Shown: one piece after another, positions 23,601-63,335 of the stretch
Layout: each line of letters begins with the position of its first letter
Position numbering within the stretch: position 1 is the stretch's first letter
From: Microscilla marina ATCC 23134
GTDB taxonomy: Bacteria > Bacteroidota > Bacteroidia > Cytophagales > Microscillaceae
Length of the DNA stretch: 64,000 bases
Assembly (NCBI RefSeq): GCF_000169175.1
Contig: NZ_AAWS01000004.1
Span: 1-64,000, forward strand
Reading direction: 5' to 3'
Program-made: the position numbers and the translations under genes
Notes under the pieces: generated by a model
Told to the model about the DNA's origin: nothing
The model's input: the letters and a program-made list of their open reading frames with translations, nothing else
The model's database searches: none

Positions 23601-24718
23601 CAGTTTTCGGGTTTAAATAATGCAGGATTGAGTCTGGCTTTACTTCCTGTTTTTACCCAGACAGGGTACTTTGCTGGGTTTTGTTCCGACAACTTGACGT
23701 GCTGAGCTGCCAGTCCTTTCAGATAATAGCCTAAAAACTCGGCACCACTACCACAGCTTGTCCCATTGGCAGGTCTGATAAGTGCCACATACTTTTTGCC
23801 ATTCTTGCCAATAAACCCTTTGAGACTACCGTTGCAGCTTAACCAAAACTGCAAAGATTTTTTTTGCATATTGCTTACACTAATGGCCTTGCCAGAGGGA
23901 GTCATTACCCCGTCATAGGTTTCTTGGGTAAGCGCAAGATTTGCCACTAATTCATTATCAGATACTTCAATGACCCTGGCACTCGCCCAAGCCCCAGTTT
24001 GTCCGGTATTGCCCACCCCCAGTACCTCCTCATACTTCGCTATCAGCTCAGAACTGGGGTTATCCAGGGCAACCTCTTTGGCAAAATTGCCCAACGACTG
24101 ATGTACCCGGTATATCAGTGCCCGCGCATAGTCATCTTTGGTGTTGACATTTGTCGCCTTGTTTTGCAAGTCAGCCCTGAAATCATTCGCCGTAATTTTG
24201 TGTTGCGCCAAACTACCACCTACGGAAAGTCCGGTACTTTGCAGATAACTGGTTTTGATGCCCACCTTTTTGCCTTTGATCGACTTCACAAAATTGATCG
24301 TGAGCAATACCGTGTTTTCGTCCAACATCGATTGGGCGTACACCTTTTCTGTAAAGTCTTTGGTTTCCTGATTAAACCGGGTGGCGGCGTTGGGCTCTTC
24401 TACCATATCGGGGCTGCGGGTAATGATCACATACAGCGCTTTGCCCGTTTGCTTTTTCAGCAAGTCTTGCAGTTGCTCTATCTTGGTTTTGGTGTCCTCA
24501 CTTACATAGTTTAAGCGGTCAATCAAATAGTTAGAAGCGACAGTCCGTGCTTTGAGGGTGTTGTGGGTAACTGCCCGATTAATTAGTTTGACCGAAGCTT
24601 CAATGTGGGCTTTTTGCAACGAATCGCGGTCGTTTGCCCAGGCTATAGTGCTTGCCCAGATGCTTGATAAAACAAAAAGGAGGAGTACCCGATGAAGTTG
24701 TTGTTTGAATGAATGCAT
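20627..24718 (-). CDS. Secreted polymorphic toxin with pretoxin HINT domain
   Basis: A 1363-residue protein. Residues 1-29 are a Sec signal peptide (VLLLFVLSSIWA, cut after AWA). Residues ~65-215 resemble a TPM-type periplasmic domain (TGKALYVIITRSPDMVEE, then LTINFVKSIKGKKVGIKTSY). A long middle region has many Cys-containing segments. A pretoxin HINT domain spans Cys967 (CFVAGTLI) to Asn1098 (VLVHN). HINT domains of this type cut the chain and free the C-terminal toxin. The toxin region, 1099-1363, is not a family I can name. It contains GLGTKMFDDAFKNLEKHF and EAARSTFTGKIAERHGYKVV, weakly reminiscent of an acetyltransferase-like fold. It is preceded by the fibronectin-like gene (31 bp) and followed by the putative immunity gene. 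Confidence 0.85.
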   Translation of the reverse strand: MHSFKQQLHRVLLLFVLSSIWASTIAWANDRDSLQKAHIEASVKLINRAVTHNTLKARTVASNYLIDRLNYVSEDTKTKIEQLQDLLKKQTGKALYVIITRSPDMVEEPNAATRFNQETKDFTEKVYAQSMLDENTVLLTINFVKSIKGKKVGIKTSYLQSTGLSVGGSLAQHKITANDFRADLQNKATNVNTKDDYARALIYRVHQSLGNFAKEVALDNPSSELIAKYEEVLGVGNTGQTGAWASARVIEVSDNELVANLALTQETYDGVMTPSGKAISVSNMQKKSLQFWLSCNGSLKGFIGKNGKKYVALIRPANGTSCGSGAEFLGYYLKGLAAQHVKLSEQNPAKYPVWVKTGSKARLNPALFKPENWFPTQNIILEKNKRLRARKYRKPYLNSAYINSADMSGFWSLLKDLQVVKTVCYEDIYWNNVLATPSNRSNIKGAINPHHFDVQNSRTTVKQTGCDFDKLLASAQNTQPRLAAGWGMLLYFKYVKTAGIHKAKLIKFANLLTTTIGKNENLNLVNFEQKFDNTGAHHLGGSAYHIIQEILKEGYTSETELRRKYTTLPGKIRGAYSGKMYTVWATKTKKIPQGYNRYAKDYTGKSPKYQYSIQDLIVRHQYIANNHTILSPNIIKAEKAGKAFPLSSPEVKEQYKALFGTNSAIFAWAKYAAGSAGAVKDEFCFYLRGFADAVTSLIDSIEIKPHYWNPLCVKTKVGDCKACQYAYAPAFKNMFGMIEDQRLRTKLQEDFAFFAGVYNGMLGQLKGFTQMISLISGYFSDPKIRNQMAQAMNKLRKKGVWKLVKEEYSKATCNNFVTNYTQGKVLVDLLSIYVGAPKTINGFIEFTGKQLDNLTTKIAPTLTKLNLVTKKLSNKAIKLVKESGVFKIKKADKTLAQLNSEGKLEVTRALRTQPAGDLAALRARGEATQPIAARLPDGTEMNIVIYKQRTNAGEELVHCQPNGKRTCFVAGTLILTRTGYKKIEDIKVGDWVWSYHEQTGKQELKQVTQTFIRQTERLVYLYVGNELIQTTAEHPFYLEGKWVKAGNLSQGDSLHLFRSRRLALDSIAKVDTSAKVYNFSVTKHHNYFVGKAGVLVHNANGYDDLLARTNSQPLKDKINALGNDKAKFLDDFKDVDAVLAKFEAKPELVEGWRVLYDAKVADAIRTEPRWMRKVIDNLDEIEQAGGYAKWMKIGGRLDKIHIMNGDGLDVGRLFLNNGGNTTSRIYSFKTHKGFRPKVVSKNMGTAYVKDGVLHLNFNVPQAVKDLKVKGLGTKMFDDAFKNLEKHFIKFEARWTKNIELYKDYGGYSQNLKSYLENFAKSGDKVEAARSTFTGKIAERHGYKVVSVNDLDKTDVRVIFEKLD
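21412..21795. repeat. HINT-region direct repeat, copy 2
   Basis: The partner of 19265-19648 within the functional toxin gene. The same strand and direct orientation, with about 2.1 kb between copies, could let homologous recombination delete the original toxin tip plus its immunity gene and replace them by the displaced cassette. Confidence 0.75.
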
Positions 24719-47810: not shown

Positions 47811-48026
47811 CAATTGTAGTGGGTAATCGTAGGGAAACGAGGAGAAAGAGTGGGTGGTTTTTATGAAACTATATTTAATTTAATGATCCCTCTCCACCTG
47901 TTTGAAATTGGTGGGCTTTATGTGTACATTTACGCTCTTTGGATTATTTTATTGCGGAATATTACCTTGCGCAGCTTGTACGCCACTGATCAAGCTATTG
48001 ATCATACAAAAGTCAGATACATTTAC

Positions 48027-51017
48027 ATGGAAAGTACCTACGAATCGGACATAGAAAAAAAGTTTATAGAATTGCTCGTTGGGCAAAAGTATACGTACCG
48101 CAACGACATTAGAACTAGAGAAGCACTAGATCAAAACTTTAGAAAAAAGTTTAACGCCAACCATTATGTAACCCTCAGCGACGATGAGTTTACCCGCTTA
48201 AGAAGCGACCTAATCAGTGCTGACGTGTTTAGGGCGTCTAAGTTTTTGCGCCAGCAACAGTACTTTGAGCGTGACGACGACACGCCTTTATATTATAATC
48301 TGGTGAACACCAAAAAATGGTGCAAAAACGAGTTTGAGGTGGTAAACCAATTACAGATGAAAACCACCGAGAGCCGCCACCGCTACGACGTGATTTTGTT
48401 GGTAAATGGGTTACCTTTGGTGCAAATAGAGCTTAAGCGGCTCGATGTGTCGCCGCGCAAGGCAATGAAGCAAATTGTAGACTACAAAAACGATCCTGGC
48501 AATGGTTACACCAACTCGTTGTTGTGCTTTATGCAATTGTTTATAGTGAGCAACCAAACCAATACTTATTATTTTTCCAACAACAAAAACGAGCATTTTA
48601 ATTTTAATGCCGACGAGCAGTTTTTGCCTGTATACCAATTTGCCAACGAGCAAAATAAAAAAATAACCCACCTCAAGCCTTTTACCGAACGCTTTTTGAA
48701 CAAGTGTACCCTGGGCGAAATGTTGAGCAAATATATGGTGTTGGTAGAAGTGGAGCAAAAGATATTGGTGATGCGCCCCTACCAAGTGTATGCCGTGAAA
48801 GCTATAGTTGACTGCATTGAACAAAACCGAGGCAATGGCTATATCTGGCATACCACAGGCAGTGGAAAAACCTTGACTTCGTTTAAGGCGTCTACGCTGC
48901 TCAAAGAAAACCCCGACATAGAGAAGTGTTTGTTTGTGGTTGACCGCAAAGACCTAGACCGCCAAACCCGTATGGAGTTTAACAAGTTTCAGGAGGGCAG
49001 CGTAGAGGCTAATACTGACACGGGCAAGTTGGTGAGGCGGCTGTTGTCTGAAGATTATGCTGATAAGGTGATAGTAACCACTATTCAAAAACTAGGGCTT
49101 GCTCTGACGGGTGCCACCAAAAAAGACTACAGGGAGCAACTCAAGCCCTTGAGTCAAAAGCGTTTGGTGTTTATTTTTGACGAATGTCACCGCTCGCAGT
49201 TTGGCGACAACCACAAGGCGATCAAAGAATTTTTTCCGAAGGCACAATTGTTTGGTTTTACGGGTACGCCCATTTTTGAAGAAAACGCCACCTACCGAAC
49301 TATAGAAGGGGAGCAGGCTTCTTATAAAACCACAAAAGATATTTTTGAGAAAGAGCTGCACAACTATACCATCACCCACGCTATAGACAACAAAAACGTG
49401 TTGCGCTTTCATGTAGACTATTATACCCAGGAAGGCAAAGATGCCCAACCTGGTAACATATTTAGCCGCCAGGTGATAGCCGATGCCATTTTAGAGAAGC
49501 ACGACCGTGCCACGGGCAATAGACGTTTTAATGCTATTTTTGCCACGGCGTCTATCAACGATGCCATTGCTTATTATGAGCTGCTCAAGGCAATGCAAAT
49601 ACAAAAACAAGCCGTAGACCCTGCCTATAAGTCGCTCAATATTGCTTGTGTGTTTTCGCCCCCTGCCCAACTTGCCAGCGACAAAAACAAAAAAGATATT
49701 CAGCAGATTCAGGACGACCTGGAACAAGAGAAGGCAGACAACCAACAAGAGCCCGAAAAGAAAAAGGCGGCACTGGAGGGCATCATTGCCGACTATAACA
49801 TTCGCTTTGGCACTAACCACCATATCAACGAGTTTGACTTGTACTACCAAGATGTTCAACAACGGATCAAAGACCAACAGTATAGCAATAGAGACTATGC
49901 TCAAGACCAAAAGGTAGACCTTACTATAGTGGTAGATATGCTCTTGACGGGCTTTGACTCTAAATACCTTAATACGCTTTATGTAGACAAAAACCTGAAG
50001 TACCACGGGCTGGTGCAAGCCTTTTCGCGCACTAACCGTGTGCTAAATGATACCAAACCCTATGGCAATATTTTGGACTTTAGGGGGCAGCAAAGTGCGG
50101 TAAATCAAGCTATTGCTTTGTTTTCGGGTGAGCACAAGCAAAAAGCCAAAGAGGTGTGGATGGTAGACGCTGCCCCCACCGTGATAGATCATTACCAAGA
50201 GGCGGTGGCAAAGTTGGGCGATTTTATGGCAGGGCAAGGGCTGTCTAACGAACCCCAAGAGGCTTATAACCTCAAGGGCGACGGGGCGCGCATTGCTTTT
50301 GTGAAGAACTTTAAGGAGGTGCAAAGGCTCAAAACCCAACTAGAGCAATATACTGACTTGAGTGAGACACAAAAAACGCAGATTGAACAAATATTGCCTA
50401 CCGATAGGTTACGCGAATATAAAAGTGCCTACCTGGAAACCGCCAAACAACTAGATAAAAACCAGCGCGAAAAACCCGACAAAGAAGAAGCCGACAGCTG
50501 GCAAGAGTTTGACTTTGAACTAGTGTTGTTTGCTTCGGCGATGATAGACTACGACTACATTATGGGCTTGATTGCCGATAGCACCCAAAACAAGCCCAAC
50601 AAAGAGAAAATGAGCCGCGAGGAGATCAAGCAATTGTTGAGGTCGCAATCTAACTTTATGGACGAACAAGAGGTGCTAGAGGCATACATAGATAGCCTGG
50701 ATTGGGGGCGTGGCTATAGCCGACAAGAGCTTACCGAAGGCTATGCGGCATTTAAGGCAAGCCAACAAGCCGAAGAGCTGGCGGGCATAGCGGTAGAGTT
50801 TGGGCTAGAAGTGGCAAACTTGCGGGCTTTTGTAGACGAGGTAATGAACCGAATGATATTTGATGGCGAACGCTTGACCGACTTGTTGGCTCCCCTAGAG
50901 CTAGGCTGGAAAGCACGCCGCAAGCAAGAGATTGCTTTGATGGAGAAGCTAGTACCTTATTTTAAAAAATTAGCCCAAGGGCAAGAAATTTCAGGATTAT
51001 CGACGTATGAAGATTAA
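48027..51017 (+). CDS. hsdR: Type I restriction enzyme R subunit HsdR
   Basis: The start is placed at ATG 48027 (MESTYESDIEKKFIELLVGQ); upstream codons look non-coding. The 996-residue protein has a nuclease domain with Asp121, and Glu135 and Lys137 in IELKR. The helicase has Walker A TTGSGKT (Lys281), DECH at 385-388 and GFTGTPI. The C-terminal helical region binds the methylase. The enzyme uses ATP to pull unmethylated DNA through and cuts it at a distance. It overlaps hsdS by 11 bp. The order R-S-nuclease-M differs from the common R-M-S. Confidence 0.95.
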   Translation: MESTYESDIEKKFIELLVGQKYTYRNDIRTREALDQNFRKKFNANHYVTLSDDEFTRLRSDLISADVFRASKFLRQQQYFERDDDTPLYYNLVNTKKWCKNEFEVVNQLQMKTTESRHRYDVILLVNGLPLVQIELKRLDVSPRKAMKQIVDYKNDPGNGYTNSLLCFMQLFIVSNQTNTYYFSNNKNEHFNFNADEQFLPVYQFANEQNKKITHLKPFTERFLNKCTLGEMLSKYMVLVEVEQKILVMRPYQVYAVKAIVDCIEQNRGNGYIWHTTGSGKTLTSFKASTLLKENPDIEKCLFVVDRKDLDRQTRMEFNKFQEGSVEANTDTGKLVRRLLSEDYADKVIVTTIQKLGLALTGATKKDYREQLKPLSQKRLVFIFDECHRSQFGDNHKAIKEFFPKAQLFGFTGTPIFEENATYRTIEGEQASYKTTKDIFEKELHNYTITHAIDNKNVLRFHVDYYTQEGKDAQPGNIFSRQVIADAILEKHDRATGNRRFNAIFATASINDAIAYYELLKAMQIQKQAVDPAYKSLNIACVFSPPAQLASDKNKKDIQQIQDDLEQEKADNQQEPEKKKAALEGIIADYNIRFGTNHHINEFDLYYQDVQQRIKDQQYSNRDYAQDQKVDLTIVVDMLLTGFDSKYLNTLYVDKNLKYHGLVQAFSRTNRVLNDTKPYGNILDFRGQQSAVNQAIALFSGEHKQKAKEVWMVDAAPTVIDHYQEAVAKLGDFMAGQGLSNEPQEAYNLKGDGARIAFVKNFKEVQRLKTQLEQYTDLSETQKTQIEQILPTDRLREYKSAYLETAKQLDKNQREKPDKEEADSWQEFDFELVLFASAMIDYDYIMGLIADSTQNKPNKEKMSREEIKQLLRSQSNFMDEQEVLEAYIDSLDWGRGYSRQELTEGYAAFKASQQAEELAGIAVEFGLEVANLRAFVDEVMNRMIFDGERLTDLLAPLELGWKARRKQEIALMEKLVPYFKKLAQGQEISGLSTYED

Positions 51018-52215
51018 AAAAACAAACCAACCACTAGTGCCCACTTTGCGTTTTCCTGAGTTTGAAGAGGATGGAGAATGGGAGGAGAAGAGGCTGGGAG
51101 ACATTACAATTCTGGTATCTAAAAGGAATAAAGATAACAAGAAATTGCCTGTTTACTCTATTAATAACAAGGAGGGTTTTCTTCCTCAAGAAGAGCAATT
51201 TGAAGGAGTAATTAGCAGTAAAAGAGGGTATGATATTTCATTATATAAAATTATTGAACGAAATACTTTTGCTTATAACCCTGCAAGGATTGATGTAGGC
51301 TCTATTGGGTTTAGTGGAGACCTTTACAATATTATTATCAGTTCATTGTATGTATGTTTTCAAACGGAAGATAATATTGACAATCATTTTCTTTGGCAGT
51401 TTTTTAATACATATTACTTCAATACGACTGTTAGAAATAATGTGGAAGGTGGCATAAGAAACTATCTTTTTTACGAAAACTTTTCGAGAATACCTGTAGC
51501 TATACCCAAGAAACTAGAACAACAAAAAATAGCTGACTGCCTACGCTCATTAGATCAATTGATTGTGGTGCACGAAACCAGACTTGAGAGTCTCAACAAC
51601 CACAAAAAAGGTTTGATGCAACAGCTTTTCCCACAGGAAGGCGAAAAAGTGCCGCGTTTGCGTTTTCCTGAGTTTAAGGGAAATGGGGAGTGGGAGGAGA
51701 AAGAGTTGGGAAGTATAGCTAAAGTTACTACTGGAAATAAAGACACTAAGAATAAAGTTGACAATGGACAGTATCCATTTTTTGTGCGGTCACAAAATGT
51801 AGAACGCATAGATTCATACTCATTTGATGGAGAAGCAATATTAACTTCAGGTGATGGTGTGGGGGTTGGTAAAAACTTCCACTACATCATAGGCAAATTT
51901 GATTTTCATCAACGTGTATATGCTATCTACGATTTTACTGAGGTAGTTCTAGGTAAGTATATATTCATGTACTTTTCTCAATACTTCTATGATAGGGTAA
52001 TGAAAATGAGTGCAAAAAATTCAGTTGATTCTGTAAGAAAAGCAATGATTACAGAAATGCCCATTAAATTCCCATCACCCAAAGAACAACAAAAAATAGC
52101 CGATTGTCTATCTTCTTTAGACACCTTAATAGCAGCAGAAGCGCAAAAAATAGGGGCTTTGGGCAAGCACAAAAAAGGTTTGATGCAACAGCTTTTCCCT
52201 GAAATAAACCGCTAA
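51007..52215 (+). CDS. hsdS: Type I restriction specificity subunit HsdS
   Basis: A 402-residue protein with two target-recognition domains, each starting LRFPEF--(D/N)GEWEEK and ending EQQKIADCL-SLD-LI, then HKKGLMQQLFP. The two halves recognise the two parts of the site. A 32-bp DNA repeat (51601-51632 and 52168-52199) is identical in both conserved regions, as is a 19-bp repeat (51045-51063 and 51657-51675). Domain swapping by recombination across such repeats is known in this family. Confidence 0.95.
   Translation: MKIKKTNQPLVPTLRFPEFEEDGEWEEKRLGDITILVSKRNKDNKKLPVYSINNKEGFLPQEEQFEGVISSKRGYDISLYKIIERNTFAYNPARIDVGSIGFSGDLYNIIISSLYVCFQTEDNIDNHFLWQFFNTYYFNTTVRNNVEGGIRNYLFYENFSRIPVAIPKKLEQQKIADCLRSLDQLIVVHETRLESLNNHKKGLMQQLFPQEGEKVPRLRFPEFKGNGEWEEKELGSIAKVTTGNKDTKNKVDNGQYPFFVRSQNVERIDSYSFDGEAILTSGDGVGVGKNFHYIIGKFDFHQRVYAIYDFTEVVLGKYIFMYFSQYFYDRVMKMSAKNSVDSVRKAMITEMPIKFPSPKEQQKIADCLSSLDTLIAAEAQKIGALGKHKKGLMQQLFPEINR
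51601..51632 (+). repeat. hsdS direct repeat, copy 1 (identical to 52168-52199)
   Basis: The 32 bp encode the end of the first conserved region (KKGLMQQLFP). The identical second copy is 567 bp downstream at 52168-52199. The two could recombine and delete or exchange a target-recognition half. Confidence 0.85.
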
Positions 52216-52220
52216 GTATT

Positions 52221-53420
52221 ATGAGTAATCAATCATCTAACAACAACCCAATAAAGGCAGACTTAACTGAAGTAGCCAAGGCGATTCAACACCGACTCAA
52301 TAGTAGAGATTTAGTGCTCTTGTTTGCCTACAATGGCACAGGCAAAACAAGGCTGTCGATGGAGTTTAAAAATTTGAGTAAAAATAGACGTCAAAACCCT
52401 GAAACCAACACCTTGTATTTTAATGCCTATACCGAAGATTTGTTTGTTTGGAACAACGATCTTGATGGCGATACCGAGCGTTATTTACAAATGAACAAAG
52501 ATTCCAAATTTTTTGATGGTTTTGAAGATTTGGCGCTAGAGGTGAGGATAGAAAAGTATTTACAAAACTATGTAGACTTTGACTTTAGGATAGACTACGA
52601 AGATTGGCGGGTGATATTTAGCAGGAACGAAATAACAGATAACAACGCACAGGAAGAGGGGGAAGAAGCCAACAACAATGAGGAAGTGAATGATAGCGAG
52701 GAAGAACAAAGTCAGACAGTAGACTTTATCAAGGTATCGCGAGGTGAAGAAAACCTATTTGTATGGTGTATATTTTTGGCAATTGCCGAGATAGCCATAG
52801 AAGACCACGAGCTGACAAATGCCTATAGTTGGGTGAAGTATATTTATATAGACGACCCCATTTCGTCGCTTGACGACAACAATACTATAACCGTAGCTAC
52901 CGACCTAGCCCAATTGCTTGGAAAAGCCAAAGAACGGGGCAAAGAACAAAGCAATCCAAGTCCTGTAAAAGTGGTAGTGTCTACCCACCATGCTTTGTTT
53001 TACAACATCATGGAAAAAGACTTGAGGGTAAGAAAAACCAACTACTTCTTGCATAAAAAAGCAGGGGGCTATCTGCTACAGGGTACCGATCAAAGTCCGT
53101 TTTTTCATCATGTGGCATTGCTTGCCGAACTCAAGCACGTAGCCAGCACAGGTAACATCAAAACTTACCACTTCAACGGTTTGAGAACCTTGCTAGAGAA
53201 AGTCGCCGCCTTTTTTGGTTATCGACGTTTTCAACAATGTATAGAGTATATGGCACAAGACGAGGACGAAGTATTGTTTAATCGTGCGGTACAACTCATG
53301 AGTCACGGGGGCTACTCAGTATATGAGGCTAAAGAAATGGTAGAAGACAACAAAAAAATATTCAGAAAGGTGCTTACCTCATTTTTAGACAAATACGAGT
53401 TTGAGGTGCCCAACATATAG
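52221..53420 (+). CDS. PrrC-like anticodon nuclease in the type I locus
   Basis: A 399-residue protein, close to the 396 of E. coli PrrC. Walker A is AYNGTGKTRLS (Lys42), the ABC signature VSRGEENLF, Walker B YIYIDDPISSLDD, and the H-switch VVVSTHHALF. The C-terminus has Arg322 and Glu326 in LRTLLEK, and His362 in MSHGGYS, matching the R-x3-E...H arrangement of the PrrC tRNA-cleaving site. An acidic insert lies at about 140-165 (EEGEEANNNEEVNDSEEEQS). It is encoded 5 bp after hsdS and before hsdM. PrrC stays bound to the restriction enzyme and cuts tRNA when a phage inhibits it. Assignment is from motifs and context. Confidence 0.7.
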   Translation: MSNQSSNNNPIKADLTEVAKAIQHRLNSRDLVLLFAYNGTGKTRLSMEFKNLSKNRRQNPETNTLYFNAYTEDLFVWNNDLDGDTERYLQMNKDSKFFDGFEDLALEVRIEKYLQNYVDFDFRIDYEDWRVIFSRNEITDNNAQEEGEEANNNEEVNDSEEEQSQTVDFIKVSRGEENLFVWCIFLAIAEIAIEDHELTNAYSWVKYIYIDDPISSLDDNNTITVATDLAQLLGKAKERGKEQSNPSPVKVVVSTHHALFYNIMEKDLRVRKTNYFLHKKAGGYLLQGTDQSPFFHHVALLAELKHVASTGNIKTYHFNGLRTLLEKVAAFFGYRRFQQCIEYMAQDEDEVLFNRAVQLMSHGGYSVYEAKEMVEDNKKIFRKVLTSFLDKYEFEVPNI

Positions 53421-53434
53421 GTAAAGGAGACTAA

Positions 53435-53750
53435 TTAGTTGGGAGTCAGTAGTCAGGAGCTTTTACAGCTTTAAGCCAAGTTGGTTAGTCAGTAGTTAAG
53501 CCTGTTACTGCAAGTATTGTATTTGCAAATATGATAGAAGCTATTGATTGTTACCTCCCAGCTACCGACCCTCGACTACCAAATTTATAAACAGCTAAAA
53601 ATCAACGTACTATAAAATAGGGTAGTTGCTTGTAGAGCAAGGTGTAAAAACCTAGAACCCAGCGCCTAGTTCCTAGCACCTTGAAGTAGCTCCCAACTAT
53701 AAACTAAAAGCCAAGTTTGTAGAAGCTCCCGACTCCCAACTATAGACTAA
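53435..53750. repeat. Inverted-repeat (MITE-like) element, copy C
   Basis: The left end (TTAGTTGGGAGTCAGTAG, then CAGGAGCTTTTACAGC) and the reversed right end (AGTTGGGAGTCGGGAGCTTC) are imperfect inverted repeats of ~40 bp. The interior carries GCTAAAAATCAACGT and GTTGCTTGTAGAGCA. It fills the spacer between the PrrC-like gene and hsdM and has no coding frame. Confidence 0.65.
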
Positions 53751-53761
53751 AAGAAAAAATT

Positions 53762-55378
53762 ATGACACAACAAGAACAACATAACCAATTGGGCAGTACC
53801 CTTTGGAAAATAGCTGATGAGTTGCGCGGCGCCATGAATGCCGATAGCTTTAGAGATTATATGCTCTCGTTTCTTTTCTTAAAGTACCTATCGAGCAACT
53901 ATGAAGAAGCCGCCAAGCGAGAACTAGGGAGCGACTATCCAAAGCTAGACGGAGAAGAAGATACCCGTACTCCGCTCAGCATATGGTATGCTGCCAACGC
54001 CGACGATGTGCCTGAGTTTGAGGCGCAAATGCGCAAAAAGGTGCATTATGTGATAGAGCCCATTTACCTTTGGAAGAGCATCTCGGAGCTTGCCCGTAGC
54101 CAACACGAAGATTTGCTAAAAACCTTGAAAGAGGGTTTTAAATACATAGAAAACGAATCGTTTGAGAGCGCCTTTCAAGGCTTGTTTTCAGAGATTCACC
54201 TCGACTCAGAGAAGCTAGGCAAAAACACCACTGAGCGCAACAAACGTTTGTGTACTATTGTGAGCAAAATAAGCGCAGGCATTGCCGAGTTCTCTACCGA
54301 TAGCGATGCCTTGGGCGATGCCTACGAGTATTTGATTGGGCAGTTTGCGGCAGGTTCGGGCAAAAAAGCGGGCGAGTTTTACACGCCCCAACAAATCTCT
54401 GGTATTTTGTCTGAGATAGTGACCCTAGATTGCCAAAACCCCGCAGCGGGCAAAAAGAAGAAGCTAGAGCATGTGCTTGACTTTGCTTGCGGGTCGGGTT
54501 CGTTGCTATTAAATGTGAGAAAAAGAATGGTGCAGGCAGGGGGTAGCACGGGCAAAATATATGGGCAAGAAAAAAACGTGACCACCTACAACCTGGCACG
54601 CATGAACATGCTCTTGCACGGAATGAAAGACACCGAGTTTGACATCTTTCACGGCGATACTTTGCTCAATCAATGGGGTGTACTCAATGAAATGAACCCC
54701 GCTAAAAAGCCAAAGTTTGATGCTATAGTAGCCAATCCGCCCTTTAGCCTTCGTTGGGACTCTAGCAGCGACCTAGCCGAAGACTTTCGTTTTAGGGGCT
54801 ATGGCTTGGCGCCCAAGTCGGCAGCCGATTTTGCTTTTTTGTTGCATGGTTTTCATTACTTATCAGACAATGGCACTATGACAATTATATTGCCGCACGG
54901 AGTATTGTTTAGGGGCGGAGCCGAAGAGCGCATTCGTACCAAGCTGCTCAAAGACAACCACATAGATACAGTGATTGGTTTACCTTCTAACCTGTTTTAT
55001 TCTACGGGTATACCCGTGTGTATATTGGTGTTAAAAAAATGTACCAGGGCAAACGATGTGCTCTTTATCAACGCCAGCGAGCACTTTGACAAGGGCAAGC
55101 GGCAAAACGCCCTCAACGAAGACCACATTGCTAAGATTATAGACACCTACCAACACCGCAAAGAAGAAGAACGCTATTCGCAGCGGGTGACTATGGCAGA
55201 AATAGAAGAACAGGGCTACAACCTCAACATTACCCGCTATGTGAGCACCGCCAAGCCAGAGCCCAAGGTAGACCTCAAAGAAGTAAATGCGGAACTACGG
55301 ACAGTAAACAAGGACATAAAAAAACATACCGATGCTCATAATGAGTTTTTGAAAGAATTGGGCTTGCCGCCTGTTTAA
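53762..55378 (+). CDS. hsdM: Type I DNA methyltransferase HsdM
   Basis: A 538-residue N6-adenine methyltransferase. The HsdM N-terminal helical domain is at 10-150. The S-adenosylmethionine motif DFACGSGS is at 240-247 and the catalytic NPPF at 325-328. A C-terminal coiled region runs to about 520. Together with HsdS it methylates the recognition site and forms the core on which HsdR works. It is separated from the rest of the operon by the repeat element and ends in a strong hairpin. Confidence 0.95.
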   Translation: MTQQEQHNQLGSTLWKIADELRGAMNADSFRDYMLSFLFLKYLSSNYEEAAKRELGSDYPKLDGEEDTRTPLSIWYAANADDVPEFEAQMRKKVHYVIEPIYLWKSISELARSQHEDLLKTLKEGFKYIENESFESAFQGLFSEIHLDSEKLGKNTTERNKRLCTIVSKISAGIAEFSTDSDALGDAYEYLIGQFAAGSGKKAGEFYTPQQISGILSEIVTLDCQNPAAGKKKKLEHVLDFACGSGSLLLNVRKRMVQAGGSTGKIYGQEKNVTTYNLARMNMLLHGMKDTEFDIFHGDTLLNQWGVLNEMNPAKKPKFDAIVANPPFSLRWDSSSDLAEDFRFRGYGLAPKSAADFAFLLHGFHYLSDNGTMTIILPHGVLFRGGAEERIRTKLLKDNHIDTVIGLPSNLFYSTGIPVCILVLKKCTRANDVLFINASEHFDKGKRQNALNEDHIAKIIDTYQHRKEEERYSQRVTMAEIEEQGYNLNITRYVSTAKPEPKVDLKEVNAELRTVNKDIKKHTDAHNEFLKELGLPPV

Positions 55379-56146
55379 GCTAATCGATATTTAATCATAG
55401 CCTAATAAATATTATTTGAACTGTGAGGAATCAGACTAGTTCATACTCTAACTATCAAGAAGTTTACCTTGGGGAGCAGTAAACCTTAAATATTTGATAC
55501 TTGCCGATCTTTGAAAATCGGGCAAGTATCAAATGTAAATTACAATGTAAAATGAAAGAAGTAATAAATCGCCTCGTTATAGAGCCTGGGAACAGTGCTT
55601 TTCAAGGCTTCGCTCAACTCGTGGAGACACCATCTAAGACGATGACGGTGCTTTTGAAAAAAAGCTGGGTAGAGTAAATATTGAGCATAACTCCTTGTGG
55701 GGTCACCACAATGGTATTCCCTCACTCAAAGTGGGCTTGTTTTTACGCTTGTTGTCTTTTACAGCTATTAAGCAACAAAAGATGTAGTTTTTGGATTGAG
55801 CATTCGTTGATGCTTTTGATCACATCAGTAAGCCAAACCTGTAGGGTTATTCCTGCCATTTTGCAAAATCCTATCAGCGAATAGAATAAAGCAGTGTGTT
55901 TGGCGGAATTTTTTGACCCTCCGCAAAGAGATAGCTCTTGTACATCCCCTCACTGAATAGGATATTTGAAATATTATCTTCGAATTCTCAATGAGTGAAT
56001 TTTAGTCTAAAGAACTCTGAGCACTCGAATTAAAATTTTGCCCTGTATTACTAAACAAGAATATTAGTAACGAATAACCTTCTGTTTAAGAGTAATTTTA
56101 CTTACTTTTAAGCATTTTAAAAACCATCCTTCTTTAGTTTTCTACC
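55379..56146. other. Spacer between restriction operon and ddmDE-like operon
   Basis: No gene can be supported. It holds the terminator at 55493-55533 and a short segment near 55620-55640 (GGAGACACCATCTAAGACGA) similar to 39640-39658 (GAAGACACCATCCGAGACAA), hence a small dispersed repeat. The last ~300 bp are AT-rich and should carry the ddmDE promoter, but no good TAnnTTTG was found. Confidence 0.5.
55493..55533 (+). terminator. Hairpin terminator downstream of hsdM
   Basis: TTTGATACTTGCC (55493-55505) with GGCAAGTATCAAA (55521-55533) form a 13-bp stem around a short loop that can extend by GAT/ATC. The T run is poor, so it may act as a pause or RNA-stability hairpin. Confidence 0.55.
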
Positions 56147-59100
56147 ATGCAAGAAATATTAGATGCTTACTGTGACTCTAACAATGGTCTATTACTCCTT
56201 GATCCGCCTACTGGATTTGGCAAAACTTATCATGTTCTTCAATGGATTTATAATAACTACGAAACATATTGTAAAGGGGGGGAGAAAATCTTTTTCGTGA
56301 CTAACTTAAAAAAGAACTTACCTTACAAAAACTTGGAAGAGCTGTTTACAAAACAAGGTAAGAAAGAAAAATTTGAACAAGATGTTATTTTTATAGATTC
56401 AAACCTTGATTTAGTTTTAAAAAACTTTCCATTGGTTGAAAATGAGATTAAAGATTTCTTCGCAGAAGAAAGTTTTGATGAATTGGATCACTTATCAAAA
56501 AAAATAAAAATACTAGAAAAACCAGATGTCAACCCAGAAACAATTGCAATTCTAAAACAAGAAATCCAAAAAAACTTAGAGCCAAAGGTACGTAAAGCTA
56601 TCATTAAACGCTTAAATAATAGATTTGGAAGCAAGAAGAAGAAGCTAAAAGCAATTAATGAAACGAAGAAATATGGCTGGATTAAAAAGCTATACCCACA
56701 AGTAAGGAGCTCAGAAGCTAAAATCTTCTTTTTGAGCATACATAAATTTTACCTTAAAAACTCGAGTTTAGTCGAACCTGCTTACCATTTTATAAATCAT
56801 GATATCACCAAAAATGCACTAGTTTTTATTGACGAATTTGACGCTTCAAAAGATATCTTGATGAAAATTATGATTGATGAAGCTGTTGGGCAAAAAGTAG
56901 AAATTATAGAGTTGTTTAATAATATAAAAAGAAATTTAGATGCCCATGAACTTCCTGCCAACTTACTTCAAGAATCAGAATGGCGGCAAGAGTTAATGAA
57001 CAAATACCCCAATGTTCAACCGCTAACAAAAATGGTCAAAGAACTCGAAGGAGTTGCCACCGAGAACTTTACAAACTATAACCTTGCTTTTAAATTCAAA
57101 ACAAAACAAACGTCACAAAGAAAAAGAAACCTTATATTTCAAGATTTTGAATATCATACCATTGCTGGAAAAGGCAAGTATTTTAACCTATTTACTGACT
57201 CTAGTCATAAATATAACTATTTAGAGTTACTTGTTGATAAGCCAGAATCGTTTGAACATGATATAGTAGCCTTGATTAACAGGTTACGATTTTTTTTGAA
57301 ATCATTTAAAAACCTTGTGAAATCCTTATCGCATAATCTTTATAAAAATAGAATAGAGAACAGGGAGCAAAATGACAATGAACTTAGTCTCCATTCAGCC
57401 ATCAGATCAGTATTAGATGCCTTTGGTCTAGAAGGAAGGCAAAGACATTTTTTTGAAAACTACATATTAAATGATCAAGATAAAGACTTCAATGCAATTA
57501 ATTTTTCAATAGAAGAATATGACCTAACTATTTATTCAAATGGGTTTAGGTATTATGATTTTGTAGATGATGACGATCATGCGTTAAGAACCAAGATTTT
57601 GTTTTTCAACTATGAGAAAACACCTGAAAAGTTTCTTCTAAGACTTTGTGAAAAAGCCAAGGTCATTGGCATATCAGCCACCGCCAATATTAAAACTGTA
57701 ACTGGTAATTATGACATCGATTACCTGAAACGAAAACTGGATGCTAGGTTTCATGAATTATCTGAAACCTACAAAAACTCATTGAAAAGTGCTTTTGCTA
57801 TACAAAATGAAAATTACAGTAAGGTCAATATTTACGTGGAATTTATTGAAATAAATAAAGATTCACCTTTTGATTGTTTTAAAGAAATATTTATCGATAG
57901 AGATACAGCCAAATTTCACTACAGCAAGATACAGTTTGAAATATCGCCAGATGACAATTATTATTTATTAAATAGGTATTATCGTATCCTAAAAGCTTTT
58001 AAAGTCTTTGCAGAAAAAGATGAAATCAAAGGTTTTTTATGTCTTTTGAATAAAATCCCTAAAGAAGGTGATACCAAACTTAACCTTGATATTTTACAAG
58101 AAGCGTTTTCCGATATAGTTAAACTCCTCAGTAAAGAGTCATTCTTTACCAATAACACTTCCACAAATAATAAGCTCAACACTTGTGTTGTTGCTTATGG
58201 CAGCACATACGAAAGGAGTAAACAACTATTCAAGGAAATATTGGAACAAGGAGGAAAGGTATTTGTAATTTCTGCCTATCAAACAATGGGAGCAGGACAA
58301 AATATACAATACAAAGCTCCTGATCCTGATAATTTAATGAATGTAAACAGTAGGGCGCTTGAAAACTGGAATAAAGAGTTTGAAACTGATTTTAATGGTC
58401 TTTATTTAGATAATCCTACCAATTTGATGCAAAATGTACAAGAGGGGATATCTGAAAACGATTTTGCAAAGTATGTATTTCAATTAGAGTTTCTTTTGGA
58501 AGTTGGAGAAATATCTTTTGGTGATATGTTATATGAAATCAAACGAGCGTTCGGCTATTTATTAGGTAAAAATCAAGCTAATACTTACATAAAAAGAATA
58601 AAAAACAACGAGTTTTCACAAATCAAAAATCACTGTCGTAAAATAATTATACAAGCCTTAGGCAGAATTTGTAGAACTAACTTGAAATCATCTAAAATTT
58701 ATATTCTGGCTGATAAAAAAATAGAAGGAGTTGTGGCTGGATTTGACATAGAAAACAACTTAGTCCTTAACGAGTTTAAAGCGTTAGTGGAAGCAGCCCA
58801 AGTTATTGATCAACCAACTTCCGAGCTTGAGAATTTGGCAAAAAAAGCGACCAATACTAACTTCAGGGTAAGGAAAAGAATTAAAAAATTTGTAGATCGA
58901 TATGAAGAGTGGGGGTGGACAACACTTGATATTGCTGAGTGGGAGCAGTTAAGACAAATGTGTCTTCGTTATCCGACACTCACAGAAGAGAATGCATCAA
59001 AAAACAAAAAAATGGTTGGTCTTTACATCCAACTTCCAACAGAAAATGATAGTATTTCATATCAACAAAAAGATGATTTTCAAGAAATAGAGGTTGATTT

Positions 59101-59656
59101 TCAAGGTAATTTAAGTCAAAAAGTATCAGCAGAATCAGCAAGACTTTCTCTGCTTATGCAAATAAATGGAATGAAAGAACATTTTGAGCGAAGTGGATGG
59201 GCAACTAGCTTTGCTAGTGGATTATATATTCTATCACCTCAACTTTTCAATAATATATATAAAGGTGCTTTGGGTGAACAGGTAGGTAAATTTCTTTTAG
59301 AGAAAGAGTTTGGATTTGAACTAATAGAACTCCCGAAAGAACATTATGAGCTTTTTGATTATCAAATTAAAGATACAAACACTTACATAGATTTTAAACA
59401 TTGGCAAGAAAGTACCAAAATTGAAGCTGACTTTGATGAAATTTGTCATAAATTGAAGAAAGTAAGTGGTGATAAAGTTTTTATTATTAACATCATTTCA
59501 GATGGTTATAAAAAAACAGTGTCTAATAATGCTGGTACAATTCACCAAATCCCCTGCCTTTGGGATTTTTCGAAACAGAAGATATATTCTGAGGCTTTTA
59601 TTCAGATTAGTAATAATATTGATTTAGAACCCCAAGGCTCATCTATTGACCAATAA
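56147..59656 (+). CDS. ddmD: Helicase-nuclease, DdmD-like
   Basis: An 1169-residue protein. Walker A DPPTGFGKT (Lys26), DEFD at 229-232, a SAT motif at 510-512 (GISATANIKT) and QALGRICR at 836-843 mark a superfamily 2 helicase. The C-terminus has a PD-(D/E)xK nuclease with Asp1071 (LFDYQI), Asp1082 and Lys1084 (YIDFKHW), preceded by GALGEQVGKFLLEKEF. Vibrio cholerae DdmD is a helicase with a C-terminal nuclease of similar length, paired with an Argonaute-like DdmE. The partner here starts 23 bp downstream. The identification is by size, order and motifs; no alignment was run. Confidence 0.7.
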   Translation: MQEILDAYCDSNNGLLLLDPPTGFGKTYHVLQWIYNNYETYCKGGEKIFFVTNLKKNLPYKNLEELFTKQGKKEKFEQDVIFIDSNLDLVLKNFPLVENEIKDFFAEESFDELDHLSKKIKILEKPDVNPETIAILKQEIQKNLEPKVRKAIIKRLNNRFGSKKKKLKAINETKKYGWIKKLYPQVRSSEAKIFFLSIHKFYLKNSSLVEPAYHFINHDITKNALVFIDEFDASKDILMKIMIDEAVGQKVEIIELFNNIKRNLDAHELPANLLQESEWRQELMNKYPNVQPLTKMVKELEGVATENFTNYNLAFKFKTKQTSQRKRNLIFQDFEYHTIAGKGKYFNLFTDSSHKYNYLELLVDKPESFEHDIVALINRLRFFLKSFKNLVKSLSHNLYKNRIENREQNDNELSLHSAIRSVLDAFGLEGRQRHFFENYILNDQDKDFNAINFSIEEYDLTIYSNGFRYYDFVDDDDHALRTKILFFNYEKTPEKFLLRLCEKAKVIGISATANIKTVTGNYDIDYLKRKLDARFHELSETYKNSLKSAFAIQNENYSKVNIYVEFIEINKDSPFDCFKEIFIDRDTAKFHYSKIQFEISPDDNYYLLNRYYRILKAFKVFAEKDEIKGFLCLLNKIPKEGDTKLNLDILQEAFSDIVKLLSKESFFTNNTSTNNKLNTCVVAYGSTYERSKQLFKEILEQGGKVFVISAYQTMGAGQNIQYKAPDPDNLMNVNSRALENWNKEFETDFNGLYLDNPTNLMQNVQEGISENDFAKYVFQLEFLLEVGEISFGDMLYEIKRAFGYLLGKNQANTYIKRIKNNEFSQIKNHCRKIIIQALGRICRTNLKSSKIYILADKKIEGVVAGFDIENNLVLNEFKALVEAAQVIDQPTSELENLAKKATNTNFRVRKRIKKFVDRYEEWGWTTLDIAEWEQLRQMCLRYPTLTEENASKNKKMVGLYIQLPTENDSISYQQKDDFQEIEVDFQGNLSQKVSAESARLSLLMQINGMKEHFERSGWATSFASGLYILSPQLFNNIYKGALGEQVGKFLLEKEFGFELIELPKEHYELFDYQIKDTNTYIDFKHWQESTKIEADFDEICHKLKKVSGDKVFIINIISDGYKKTVSNNAGTIHQIPCLWDFSKQKIYSEAFIQISNNIDLEPQGSSIDQ

Positions 59657-59679
59657 CATCTCATTAGTTTTTATTTAAT

Positions 59680-61797
59680 ATGCAATTAACCCAAACTAAA
59701 ACTAATCAATTAGCCATAAATATTGATAGAAAAAAACTTTCACAAGATTTTGTAATCATTAGGTTTAAACATAAAAAGGGTTATTTTCTTCAAGGAGCAG
59801 GCATTTTGGATAACATCCCAAACCTCCCCCAAGTTAAATCGATTACTATTCGTGAAGATGATCAAGATAAATCTCTTTATGCCCTTTTTGATAAAGCTCA
59901 GTTTAATACGGTTCACATACCTACATTTTTACTTAGGCAAGGTTCTGACGCAGAAAATATCACCTATGAAATAATTGATCAAATCTCTGGCTTTAATAAA
60001 TTACCTGACCATATCATTTGTCAATTACTGATTAATTCTCTTGCTAGTCCTAAAGGTTCCAGATACAGCTTCAATAACCTTACTGGACATTTCTATATTG
60101 TGCATCCAGAACATAAGGTACCAGTAATAAAACCTAAGGTCAATCAACCTAAAACAAAGCAGGTAGTAGCATTACAAGTGGTAATTAATAGACACTCTTG
60201 TTTGGAAATAAACGTTAAGACATTTACCAATATATATTTTAAAAACCGATTAAGTTTTAGCAAAAAAAGACCCTATACAAGCTATCCAAAGTATGCACTT
60301 GAATTTATTACGATGTCTATGAAGCGTCTACCTGGTTTTAGCGATCAAAAAGAAGACGATGATCAAGAGTTGTTTATTATTAAGCAGTTCCCTGGCAAAA
60401 AAAACAATATAACGTTTATTGACTTTGGTACATTTGATAAATTTCAAGTTAGCAAATGTGGAACCGTCTCCACTATATTAAAGCTCATCAAACAGGAGTT
60501 AAATAGATACTTATTTATTAGCTTTAAAGAATTAAGCCCTCAGCTTATTTGTCAATACAACTCTAAAAATACTGCACTAAAAAAAGTCAGGATAGGTCAT
60601 CATTTAAGCTACAAGAAAATCAATATTGCAGATGTTATCAATGATGCTGAATCACAAGAACTTGTTCTTCATTTGTCAAATACATTGCGTACACAATATC
60701 CCACTTGTACCATTACTCAAAAATCTCGTATTCAAAAGTCATCGTTTAACTTTCGTCTTATTCACGATAAAGAATTTTACGAACACAATAATCTTTCTGA
60801 TTCATACCAGGTTTACAACAAAGTGCCTGTAAATCACTTAAACCTCTATGAGCTTAAAAAAATAAAAGACAGTGATGATTTAGATAAAAAGGAAACCAAA
60901 AGAATTAAAGCAATAGCAGATACACTTATAAAAGAAGTAATTATCAAATACGATATCATTCAAGGCAATATAAGTATTACTGATTGGAAAGCGTTTGGAA
61001 TAGATGGTGTGTATATATTTGCTTCAAAGATGCCCGCAGAAGAGAAAGAAACAATTGATCAATATTGTTTTTTGGAAATAGATACCACTGGGAAATTAAA
61101 TTTTAGTCTCCATAAGAAAGATACTTTTTTGGGTGACTCAAGATATGATGAAATCGCTGAATATTTCGAGGATGATAATACCGTTGAAGGCATAGTTATA
61201 GATCCCTTGGGGAATATTAATGCTATTAAGAGAACTGATATAATTACTTTACCTGAGATTGTTAAAATTGGGCATATACTGGAAAAACAAGCTCAGAAAT
61301 ACTCATTTAAGAAAAGTGAATTAATTGCATATCTTAAAGAGTGCCGCCCCATAGATAAAATAAAACCATACCTAGAAAAAGTGAATAACTATCCGAACAC
61401 GAAAATCCCCAAAGATGAAATTAGAGGTTTATTGAAGCAACAAAATTTGACAAAAGAATTATCTAACCTTGTATTTAAAAAAACAAATGGTCAAATTTTA
61501 ATCAGGGCTTACCTTAAAGGTCAAAAGCCTCGTTATGAACTTCTTTCATCTAGCTTTGATATAAATTATCAAGAACTTAAAAACTATGCTCTTTACCACG
61601 TAGGAATCAAAGATGTAAACGGTTATGATATCAGCCGGGCATCAGTTATTAGAGTTATAGAATCGCTCGATAACTCAAATTTATTCTTTGAAAAACTGCT
61701 TCCTTTGATGAGTGTCGATTTTGTAAAAAATCATGAGCTTACCGTAAAACCATTTCCATTCAAGTATATTGATGAATGGATTAGAATGAACTGTTAA
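59680..61797 (+). CDS. ddmE: DdmE-like partner (putative catalytically inactive prokaryotic Argonaute)
   Basis: A 705-residue protein, near the ~690 residues of DdmE, encoded 23 bp after the helicase-nuclease, so the two form one operon. No Argonaute catalytic tetrad is evident and the fold cannot be confirmed by eye. The C-terminal end (ELTVKPFPFKYIDEWIRMNC) is in keeping with the tail of a PIWI domain. DdmE uses a guide to find plasmid DNA and recruits DdmD. The function is inferred from the partner and from the sizes. Confidence 0.55.
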   Translation: MQLTQTKTNQLAINIDRKKLSQDFVIIRFKHKKGYFLQGAGILDNIPNLPQVKSITIREDDQDKSLYALFDKAQFNTVHIPTFLLRQGSDAENITYEIIDQISGFNKLPDHIICQLLINSLASPKGSRYSFNNLTGHFYIVHPEHKVPVIKPKVNQPKTKQVVALQVVINRHSCLEINVKTFTNIYFKNRLSFSKKRPYTSYPKYALEFITMSMKRLPGFSDQKEDDDQELFIIKQFPGKKNNITFIDFGTFDKFQVSKCGTVSTILKLIKQELNRYLFISFKELSPQLICQYNSKNTALKKVRIGHHLSYKKINIADVINDAESQELVLHLSNTLRTQYPTCTITQKSRIQKSSFNFRLIHDKEFYEHNNLSDSYQVYNKVPVNHLNLYELKKIKDSDDLDKKETKRIKAIADTLIKEVIIKYDIIQGNISITDWKAFGIDGVYIFASKMPAEEKETIDQYCFLEIDTTGKLNFSLHKKDTFLGDSRYDEIAEYFEDDNTVEGIVIDPLGNINAIKRTDIITLPEIVKIGHILEKQAQKYSFKKSELIAYLKECRPIDKIKPYLEKVNNYPNTKIPKDEIRGLLKQQNLTKELSNLVFKKTNGQILIRAYLKGQKPRYELLSSSFDINYQELKNYALYHVGIKDVNGYDISRASVIRVIESLDNSNLFFEKLLPLMSVDFVKNHELTVKPFPFKYIDEWIRMNC

Positions 61798-62041: not shown

Positions 62042-63019
62042 GTGAATCACGCAGAGAAAAACAAAAAAGGCAGCGTTGCACCGCATAAGCCTATTTTGTT
62101 GTTGAGTATGATCAGGTTAATTGAAGATAGGGTCATTACATCTCAGCGAATATATCTCACGCCTGAGCTACTGTCAACTTTTAAAGAGTACTGGGAACTA
62201 CTTGCCAACCCTAAATACCACCGGGAAATTTCTCTTCCTTTTTTTTACTTAAAAAGTGATGGGTTCTGGAAACTCATACCCAACCTGGGACATGAAGAAT
62301 TCTTTGCATCTAAGAAAACAATCAAGACTTTTCATCAGCTTACTACTAAGGTAGCCTACGCCGAGTTGGATGAAGCATTGTTTCAGTTTTTACAAAACAA
62401 GCAACATCGCCAGGATTTTTGCCAAATATTACTAGATACTTACCTTGCCTACAGTAAAAACAAATTTACTGAGCAACTCAACTATAAGCAATATATTCAA
62501 GAAGTGGGTAAAAACATTGTAGAAGAAGATTTTGAGACATACTATACACGGTTGAACCAAGTAAAAACAAGGCTCAAAGCTGGAAGTAAAGCCAGGGAAC
62601 AAGTAGATGAAGAAGAGTTTATACGAACGGCTAAGTTTTCAGAGTTTATTTTAGAAATATATAACTATTCGTGTTGTGTTTCACAGTTAAACATACAAGT
62701 AAACCCCAAAGTCAAAAGAAAAATCAGCATGGTAGAAGGCTGCCACATAGAACCCTTTCATATCCATGGTAATAATAGCGTAAATAACGGCATTCCACTT
62801 ACCTATACCATACATAAGGCTTTTGATAAGGGTTTGATTGCCATTGACGATCAATACCGGGTAATTGTTGGCAATAACTTTAAAGAAAATAAGACCTCAC
62901 CCTATCATTTGCATCAGTTTCACAAACAAGAGATTCTATTGCCACAAAACCCCAAATATTACCCAAGCCTAAAAGCCCTTCATGCACACAGAGTAAAATT
63001 TGGATTTCCCAGGTCATAA
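62042..63019 (+). CDS. HNH restriction endonuclease-like protein
   Basis: The 325-residue frame starts at GTG (MNHAEKNKKGSVAPHKPILL). Residues ~210-285 are an HNH nuclease (YNYSCCVSQLNI, then EGCHIEPFHIHGNNSVNNGI, then HKAFDKGLIAI). The N-terminal domain with PHKPILLLSMI occurs in many such solo HNH restriction proteins. The ATG at 62008 in another frame encodes MTVSQYLQKFK, a likely true N-terminus, so the gene may be frameshifted near 62038. It completes the defence island. Confidence 0.7.
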   Translation: MNHAEKNKKGSVAPHKPILLLSMIRLIEDRVITSQRIYLTPELLSTFKEYWELLANPKYHREISLPFFYLKSDGFWKLIPNLGHEEFFASKKTIKTFHQLTTKVAYAELDEALFQFLQNKQHRQDFCQILLDTYLAYSKNKFTEQLNYKQYIQEVGKNIVEEDFETYYTRLNQVKTRLKAGSKAREQVDEEEFIRTAKFSEFILEIYNYSCCVSQLNIQVNPKVKRKISMVEGCHIEPFHIHGNNSVNNGIPLTYTIHKAFDKGLIAIDDQYRVIVGNNFKENKTSPYHLHQFHKQEILLPQNPKYYPSLKALHAHRVKFGFPRS

Positions 63020-63226
63020 ACCAAACCCCGCCCAACACCCTCAAAACCAATCCATTATAAACCCTTGCCCCACCCGTTTTTCTTTGGCGCGTGTTGCGCC
63101 TGTATGGGCGAAACAGGGGCAAATTCTGGGTTAGGAAGCTACCCTACTAATGAAAAAGAAAAATCCTCTATCTAAGCTACACTATAGATTCACATTAGTT
63201 GACTTATATAAGTGACTCATTATGAT
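63020..63226. other. Spacer after the HNH gene
   Basis: No gene is seen. The right part (TTAGTTGACT at 63195-63204, then TGACTCATTATGATGCC at 63213-63229) resembles the sequence at 46574-46596 inside the phage replication gene. Confidence 0.5.
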
Positions 63227-63335
63227 GCCAAATTGTCAAGGTAAGCTTGCTAATTTGGCAAGGTTCGAGGACAATCTGGCGAGGTAAGCTTGACAACCTG
63301 GCAAGGTTCAGGGACAATTTGGCAAGCTTGCAAGG
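63227..63335. repeat. Iteron-like repeat array related to the one at 46.65 kb
   Basis: One inverted GCCAAATTGTC (63227-63237) precedes four direct units starting near 63249, 63270, 63292 and 63313. The units read as variants of GACAATTTGGC followed by AAGGTT or GAGGT and are 21-23 bp long. Together with the matching sequence upstream of the array, this is a partial copy of the phage array. Stops interrupt every frame, so it is not coding. Confidence 0.7.

Follow-up and report, generated by a model that had tools for sequence, protein, structure and literature searches.

Solved structures of DdmDE, a two-gene plasmid-elimination system, come from two systems only, those of Vibrio cholerae and Lactobacillus casei. 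An antiplasmid relative, ApsAB of Escherichia coli sequence type (ST) 38, likewise joins a helicase-nuclease to an Argonaute-like protein, and an ApsA-DdmD family of broad extent, drawn with a ring of taxa in a figure, has already been described (PMC11096173). Because of that description a DdmDE system in Bacteroidota is not claimed here as unreported, and a literature search joining "DdmDE" and "Bacteroidota" found no paper. The present locus lies in Microscilla marina ATCC 23134, in a stretch of 64,000 nucleotides (contig NZ_AAWS01000004.1, positions 1 to 64,000; hereafter the window), where two adjacent genes, ddmD and ddmE, very probably form a complete two-gene DdmDE system and a distant member of this known group.

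The ddmD and ddmE genes

The ddmD gene (bp 56147–59656; 1169 aa) and the ddmE gene (bp 59680–61797; 705 aa) both start with ATG and are separated by a 23 bp spacer (bp 59657–59679); these positions, lengths and gap are exactly those given in a preliminary description of the locus. All features discussed here lie on the + strand unless marked otherwise. Each gene is present once in the M. marina genome (9.77 Mb, 135 contigs), and their order on one strand, D then E, is that of a DdmDE operon. Pfam and NCBIfam scans of the two proteins gave no useful match; the PADLOC DdmD model, on the other hand, matches the helicase-nuclease with E=3.4e-48, and with 36 of 45 loci (see below) carrying close D and E frames the pairing of the two is far beyond chance. 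Structure models are confident across most of both chains and agree in fold with solved DdmD and DdmE; the 705-residue protein, whose Argonaute nature had been a conjecture, has an Argonaute fold and is homologous to the solved DdmE structures. Gene order, homology, folds and motif residues, all observed directly here, thus support the DdmD-DdmE identity first proposed for the pair.

DdmD carries the superfamily 2 (SF2) helicase motif set (Walker A, DExx, SAT and QxxGRxxR). Its Walker A sequence GFGKT occupies residues 23–27 (bp 56213–56227), motif II, DEFD, residues 229–232 (bp 56831–56842), motif III, SAT, residues 510–512 (bp 57674–57682), and motif VI, QALGRICR, residues 836–843 (bp 58652–58675). 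Among 41 aligned DdmD rows, K26 is found in all 40 that have a letter there, while D229 and E230, the SAT triplet, and Q836, G839, R840 and R843 are present in 41 of 41. The C-terminal PD-(D/E)xK nuclease, with residues E1044, D1071, D1082 and K1084 (spanning bp 59276–59398), is equally constant: E1044 occurs in all 40 of the rows that are not gapped there, and the other three, which the preliminary description had singled out, are identical in 39 of 39, the gaps at these three falling only in the partial sequences L079 and L084.

In DdmE the predicted MID guide-pocket region contains Y367, N385, N388 and K423 (bp 60778–60948). In alignment A3 (25 DdmE sequences, hand-picked, like the 25 of alignment A4, for length and spread) position 385 is Q and position 388 is T in the other 24 rows, and the window protein has N at both; in a profile alignment solved L. 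casei DdmE (LcDdmE) has Q and T at these positions and V. cholerae DdmE (VcDdmE) has the Q but no T. The order of motifs suggests that residues 385 and 388 lie in the pocket for the guide 5′-end, and if this assignment holds guide binding may differ in the window DdmE. Between residues 430 and 705, E699 is the sole acidic residue common to all 25 rows (D435 is found in 24, D680 in 21, and three others in 18–19), and DdmE is probably without cutting activity.

Several points weigh against assigning the pair to DdmDE. Its DdmDE activity is a prediction from sequence, and in structural alignments the two proteins share little identity with their tested L. casei counterparts (22% for DdmD and 19% for DdmE). 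N385 and N388 could make guide binding altered or weak, and the apparent lack of a catalytic tetrad in DdmE was judged by column conservation and not from superposed coordinates. Finally, the 2023 PADLOC DdmE model gives no match to the window DdmE; at E 0.001 this model has no match for 19 of the 25 A3 rows, the window row included, so that surveys demanding both genes undercount DdmDE.

Relatives, phylogeny and carriage

A profile scan of genome contigs with alignment A1 found 41 loci (L007–L047). The Bacteroidota among them are Aquimarina, Saprospiraceae, Polaribacter, Draconibacterium, two Nonlabens, a Bacteroidales and Algibacter; the others include many Cyanobacteria, Clostridia and other Firmicutes, Treponema, Fibrobacteraceae, Methylobacter and the archaea Methanoperedens and Methanoculleus, in which three D-E pairs were seen (L026, L028 and L036). 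Together with four plasmid loci these make 45 loci (L003–L047). With the window proteins as queries a D frame was found in 44, an E frame in 37, and both, no more than 150 bp apart, in 36; the 4 bp overlap of the frames in 15 of these 36 close pairs makes it likely that their translation is coupled. The pair is also present in L004 and L005, where it was detected by profile; no E frame was found in L040, and some of the remaining loci that lack a close pair are broken or cut at contig ends. Occurrence is patchy. Of 395 genomes drawn from the window's phylum the PADLOC DdmD model matches one (M. marina's own), and of 369 from the class to which the Methylobacter genome belongs it matches three. 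At E 0.001 profile A4 reaches 12 of 295 genomes of the Carnobacterium order, a count that includes unsorted partial matches (e.g., G1043), and, in the window's order, 13 of 291, among which five (G1151, G1179, G1211, G1229 and G1235) were discounted as weak partial matches (E 4e-4 to 9e-4, over ∼50–150 positions of 648–859-aa frames) and taken as other helicases.

A DdmD tree ("quick" method, LG+G4) was built from the same number of rows, 41, comprising 28 of the 45 loci, the window, G691, G746 and ten rows from the scans of the Carnobacterium order and the window's order, of which L079, L083 and L084 are partial. Twelve broken or short copies (L006, L020, L034, L035 and L040–L047) and five intact ones (L016, L019, L021, L024 and L033) were kept out. 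Since the tree has long branches (L005, L004, L057, L065, L056, L039, L061 and L080) and an odd letter make-up in ten rows, only its inner 28-row clade was used. This clade (Shimodaira–Hasegawa-like approximate likelihood ratio test, SH-aLRT, 100) unites Bacteroidota, Cyanobacteria, Firmicutes, Treponema and archaea; two more of its rows come from the window's order, and inside it the window joins seven Bacteroidota rows (SH-aLRT 100). The clade sits at an open fork with L061, L064, L066 and L068, in a tree whose deep order involves long branches and whose rows do not include the V. cholerae and L. casei DdmDs (VcDdmD and LcDdmD) or ApsA; L064 and L066, outside the clade, match LcDdmD at 9.6e-217 and 1.8e-139. 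Three archaeal rows are nested within the cyanobacterial group, a placement suggestive of inter-domain transfer.

The D frame is split or truncated at nine loci (L034, L035 and L040–L046), although L041 and L045 lie close to contig ends and some of the breaks may be assembly errors. In L034, L035, L040, L042, L043, L044 and L046 ddmD is split or internally shortened, and an E frame, or a piece of one, often lies alongside; such damage in several relatives implies that the system may often be lost.

Among 72,556 plasmid records the window DdmD has four matches, Nostoc pn2 (L003), Persicobacter pPP11 (L004), an L. intestinalis plasmid (L005) and L. delbrueckii (split pieces), and in the first three the D and E genes adjoin. 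The divergent pair of Persicobacter psychrovividus pPP11 (46 kb; L004 3697–9701) lies directly behind parA-parB, and a replication gene lies ∼1.3 kb upstream of the L. intestinalis pair, where the frame stays open 5′ of the annotated D start and includes the Walker A region. A ParA-like gene shares the locus with the pair in L023 as well and, as clustering of the neighbours shows, in L045. Searches with the divergent DdmDs L064 and L004 added no plasmid to these four. Pairs carried on plasmids make it plausible that plasmids deploy DdmDE against other plasmids. Carriage by phages was also considered and dropped, because none of the pattern matches in viral contigs (three with the protein query and 144 with alignment A1) was confirmed as a relative and a search of the phage collection gave no match.

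Neighbouring genes and alternative readings

The pair lies beside a type I restriction locus, with hsdR (bp 47850–51017; Pfam T1R_D3-like, EcoR124_C, SWI2_SNF2 and HSDR_N), hsdS (bp 51007–52215; Methylase_S 1.1e-28), a PrrC-like gene (bp 52221–53420; PADLOC PrrC 1.1e-123) and hsdM, the methyltransferase gene (bp 53762–55378; HsdM_N and N6_Mtase 3.7e-106). The last of these, a neighbour outside the DdmDE system, ends 768 bp upstream of ddmD, and the pair does follow hsdM as originally reported. Downstream of ddmE is an HNH endonuclease gene (bp 62042–63019; HNH_2 1.8e-9) whose product resembles phosphorothioate-DNA restriction enzymes (NCBIfam NF045808, 8e-30; 103.9 bits, below the cut-off of 180) and is perhaps an additional restriction enzyme of the same island. 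A lanthipeptide-dehydratase-like gene also lies on the right side of the pair, and prophage-like genes lie left of ∼47.7 kb. The segments flanking hsdM (bp ∼53584–53708 and 55566–55678) recur at many sites in a congeneric genome and are apparently interspersed repeats; bp 63071–63308, 3′ of the lanthipeptide-dehydratase-like gene, has several copies there, two adjoining that genome's hsdM. Farther away, bp 20627–24718 (− strand) encode a protein of 1363 aa that has a pretoxin HINT domain (PF07591, 4.5e-28), and a nearby protein combines SprB repeats with a type IX secretion system (T9SS)-type sorting domain.

No conserved type I restriction neighbourhood emerged: in 53 other loci nothing matches the window HsdR, HsdS, PrrC, HsdM and HNH proteins at E 1e-5, save for the first four in congeneric L098, although contig ends truncate several loci and such a search could overlook restriction genes from unrelated families. 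Clustering of the neighbours in 48 loci (the 45 plus G691, G746 and the window) gave, besides D and E, no family present in more than four; one of the small recurrent families is ParA-like. The congeneric genome G1102 keeps hsdR-hsdS-PrrC-hsdM (HsdR 94%, HsdM 98%, PrrC 72% and HsdS 40% identical), and in the expected place of ddmD it has a 229-residue frame and short repeats, with a contig end 2.1 kb away; profile A4 finds no DdmD match in that genome. The pair thus looks like variable cargo next to a stable restriction locus. Its absence from a congeneric genome, the common broken or short relatives (the nine loci above) and the N385/N388 changes, which could mark relaxed selection, would fit a decaying or non-functional copy within a variable defence island, but this is improbable for a pair in which both frames are open at full length, all checked helicase and nuclease motif residues are kept and the models are confident.

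There is likewise only a slight chance that the native target is phage or other invading DNA and not plasmids. The pair does lie amid restriction and anti-phage type genes, and one Bacteroidota relative (L010) stands directly after an Avs3 gene pair; elsewhere in the phylum the L029 pair adjoins PD-Lambda-4-like and PDC-S02 genes and the L009 pair lies amid housekeeping genes. Against a phage target, characterised DdmDE acts on plasmids (PMC12409362), and ApsAB is reported to have protected against none of eight coliphages (PMC11096173).

Proposed action and comparison with known systems

If the pair works as a DdmDE system, DdmE would load a short DNA guide, base-pair with plasmid DNA and recruit DdmD, an SF2 helicase that would be kept inactive as a dimer until then. 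DdmD would load onto the non-target strand and translocate along it, its C-terminal nuclease would cut that strand, and plasmids would be lost from the population. Published work on the V. cholerae and L. casei systems is our basis for inferring the guide type, the recruitment of DdmD, its dimer-to-monomer switch and the loss of plasmids. Possible, though doubtful as a whole, is a broader picture in which the window belongs to a deep and wide lineage (Bacteroidota, Cyanobacteria, Firmicutes, a spirochaete and archaea) whose DdmE the 2023 PADLOC model mostly misses, in which the wider family includes plasmid-borne pairs (three records, one directly behind parAB) and DdmDE also serves plasmids as a weapon against their rivals, and in which the window DdmE, with two changed predicted-pocket residues, may choose guides differently from those tested. 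Distant pairs from many phyla offer independent proteins with which to probe guide acquisition by DdmE and plasmid/chromosome discrimination, and the plasmid-borne copies, of which one lies next to parAB and another next to a replication gene, make inter-plasmid use of DdmDE testable.

That the pair is instead an ApsAB branch is very improbable: the unfiltered A3 profile does also reach the partner of a divergent 1322-aa helicase in G746 (3.7e-10), but ApsA, with its nuclease lysine at 1435, is longer than the 1169-aa window DdmD, the ApsB MID motif Y-x3-K...QG...K (PMC11096173) is not present in DdmE (at what appear to be the matching positions Y367 is kept, and both 371 and 385 are N), and the strong matches go to solved DdmD and DdmE; as ApsAB is absent from the tree, this comparison is one of size and motif only.

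As a DdmDE system, then, the pair is closest to that of L. casei (PDB 9ix4, 9iw3 and 9ixm), which sequence, profile and fold comparisons alike rank as the top PDB match of the two proteins, and from which it differs in its ∼20% identity, in the position of the window clade on a branch of its own (SH-aLRT 100) and in the unusual DdmE residues 385 and 388. The V. cholerae system (PDB 8u0u, 8u3k, 9ezy and others) has the same domain layout and similar sizes and folds, but it is further off in sequence, and its DdmE is missed by single-sequence phmmer. In V. cholerae a helix-turn-helix (HTH)-WYL gene precedes ddmDE (PMC12409362), whereas the window has no open reading frame (ORF) of ≥80 aa between hsdM and ddmD. 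The parallel first drawn with Vibrio pathogenicity island 2 (VPI-2) is borne out, as there too a type I restriction-modification (T1RM) locus and ddmDE share one defence region; the VPI-2 T1RM cluster has TgvAB embedded in it (PMC12409362), much as the type I locus of the window holds the PrrC-like gene.
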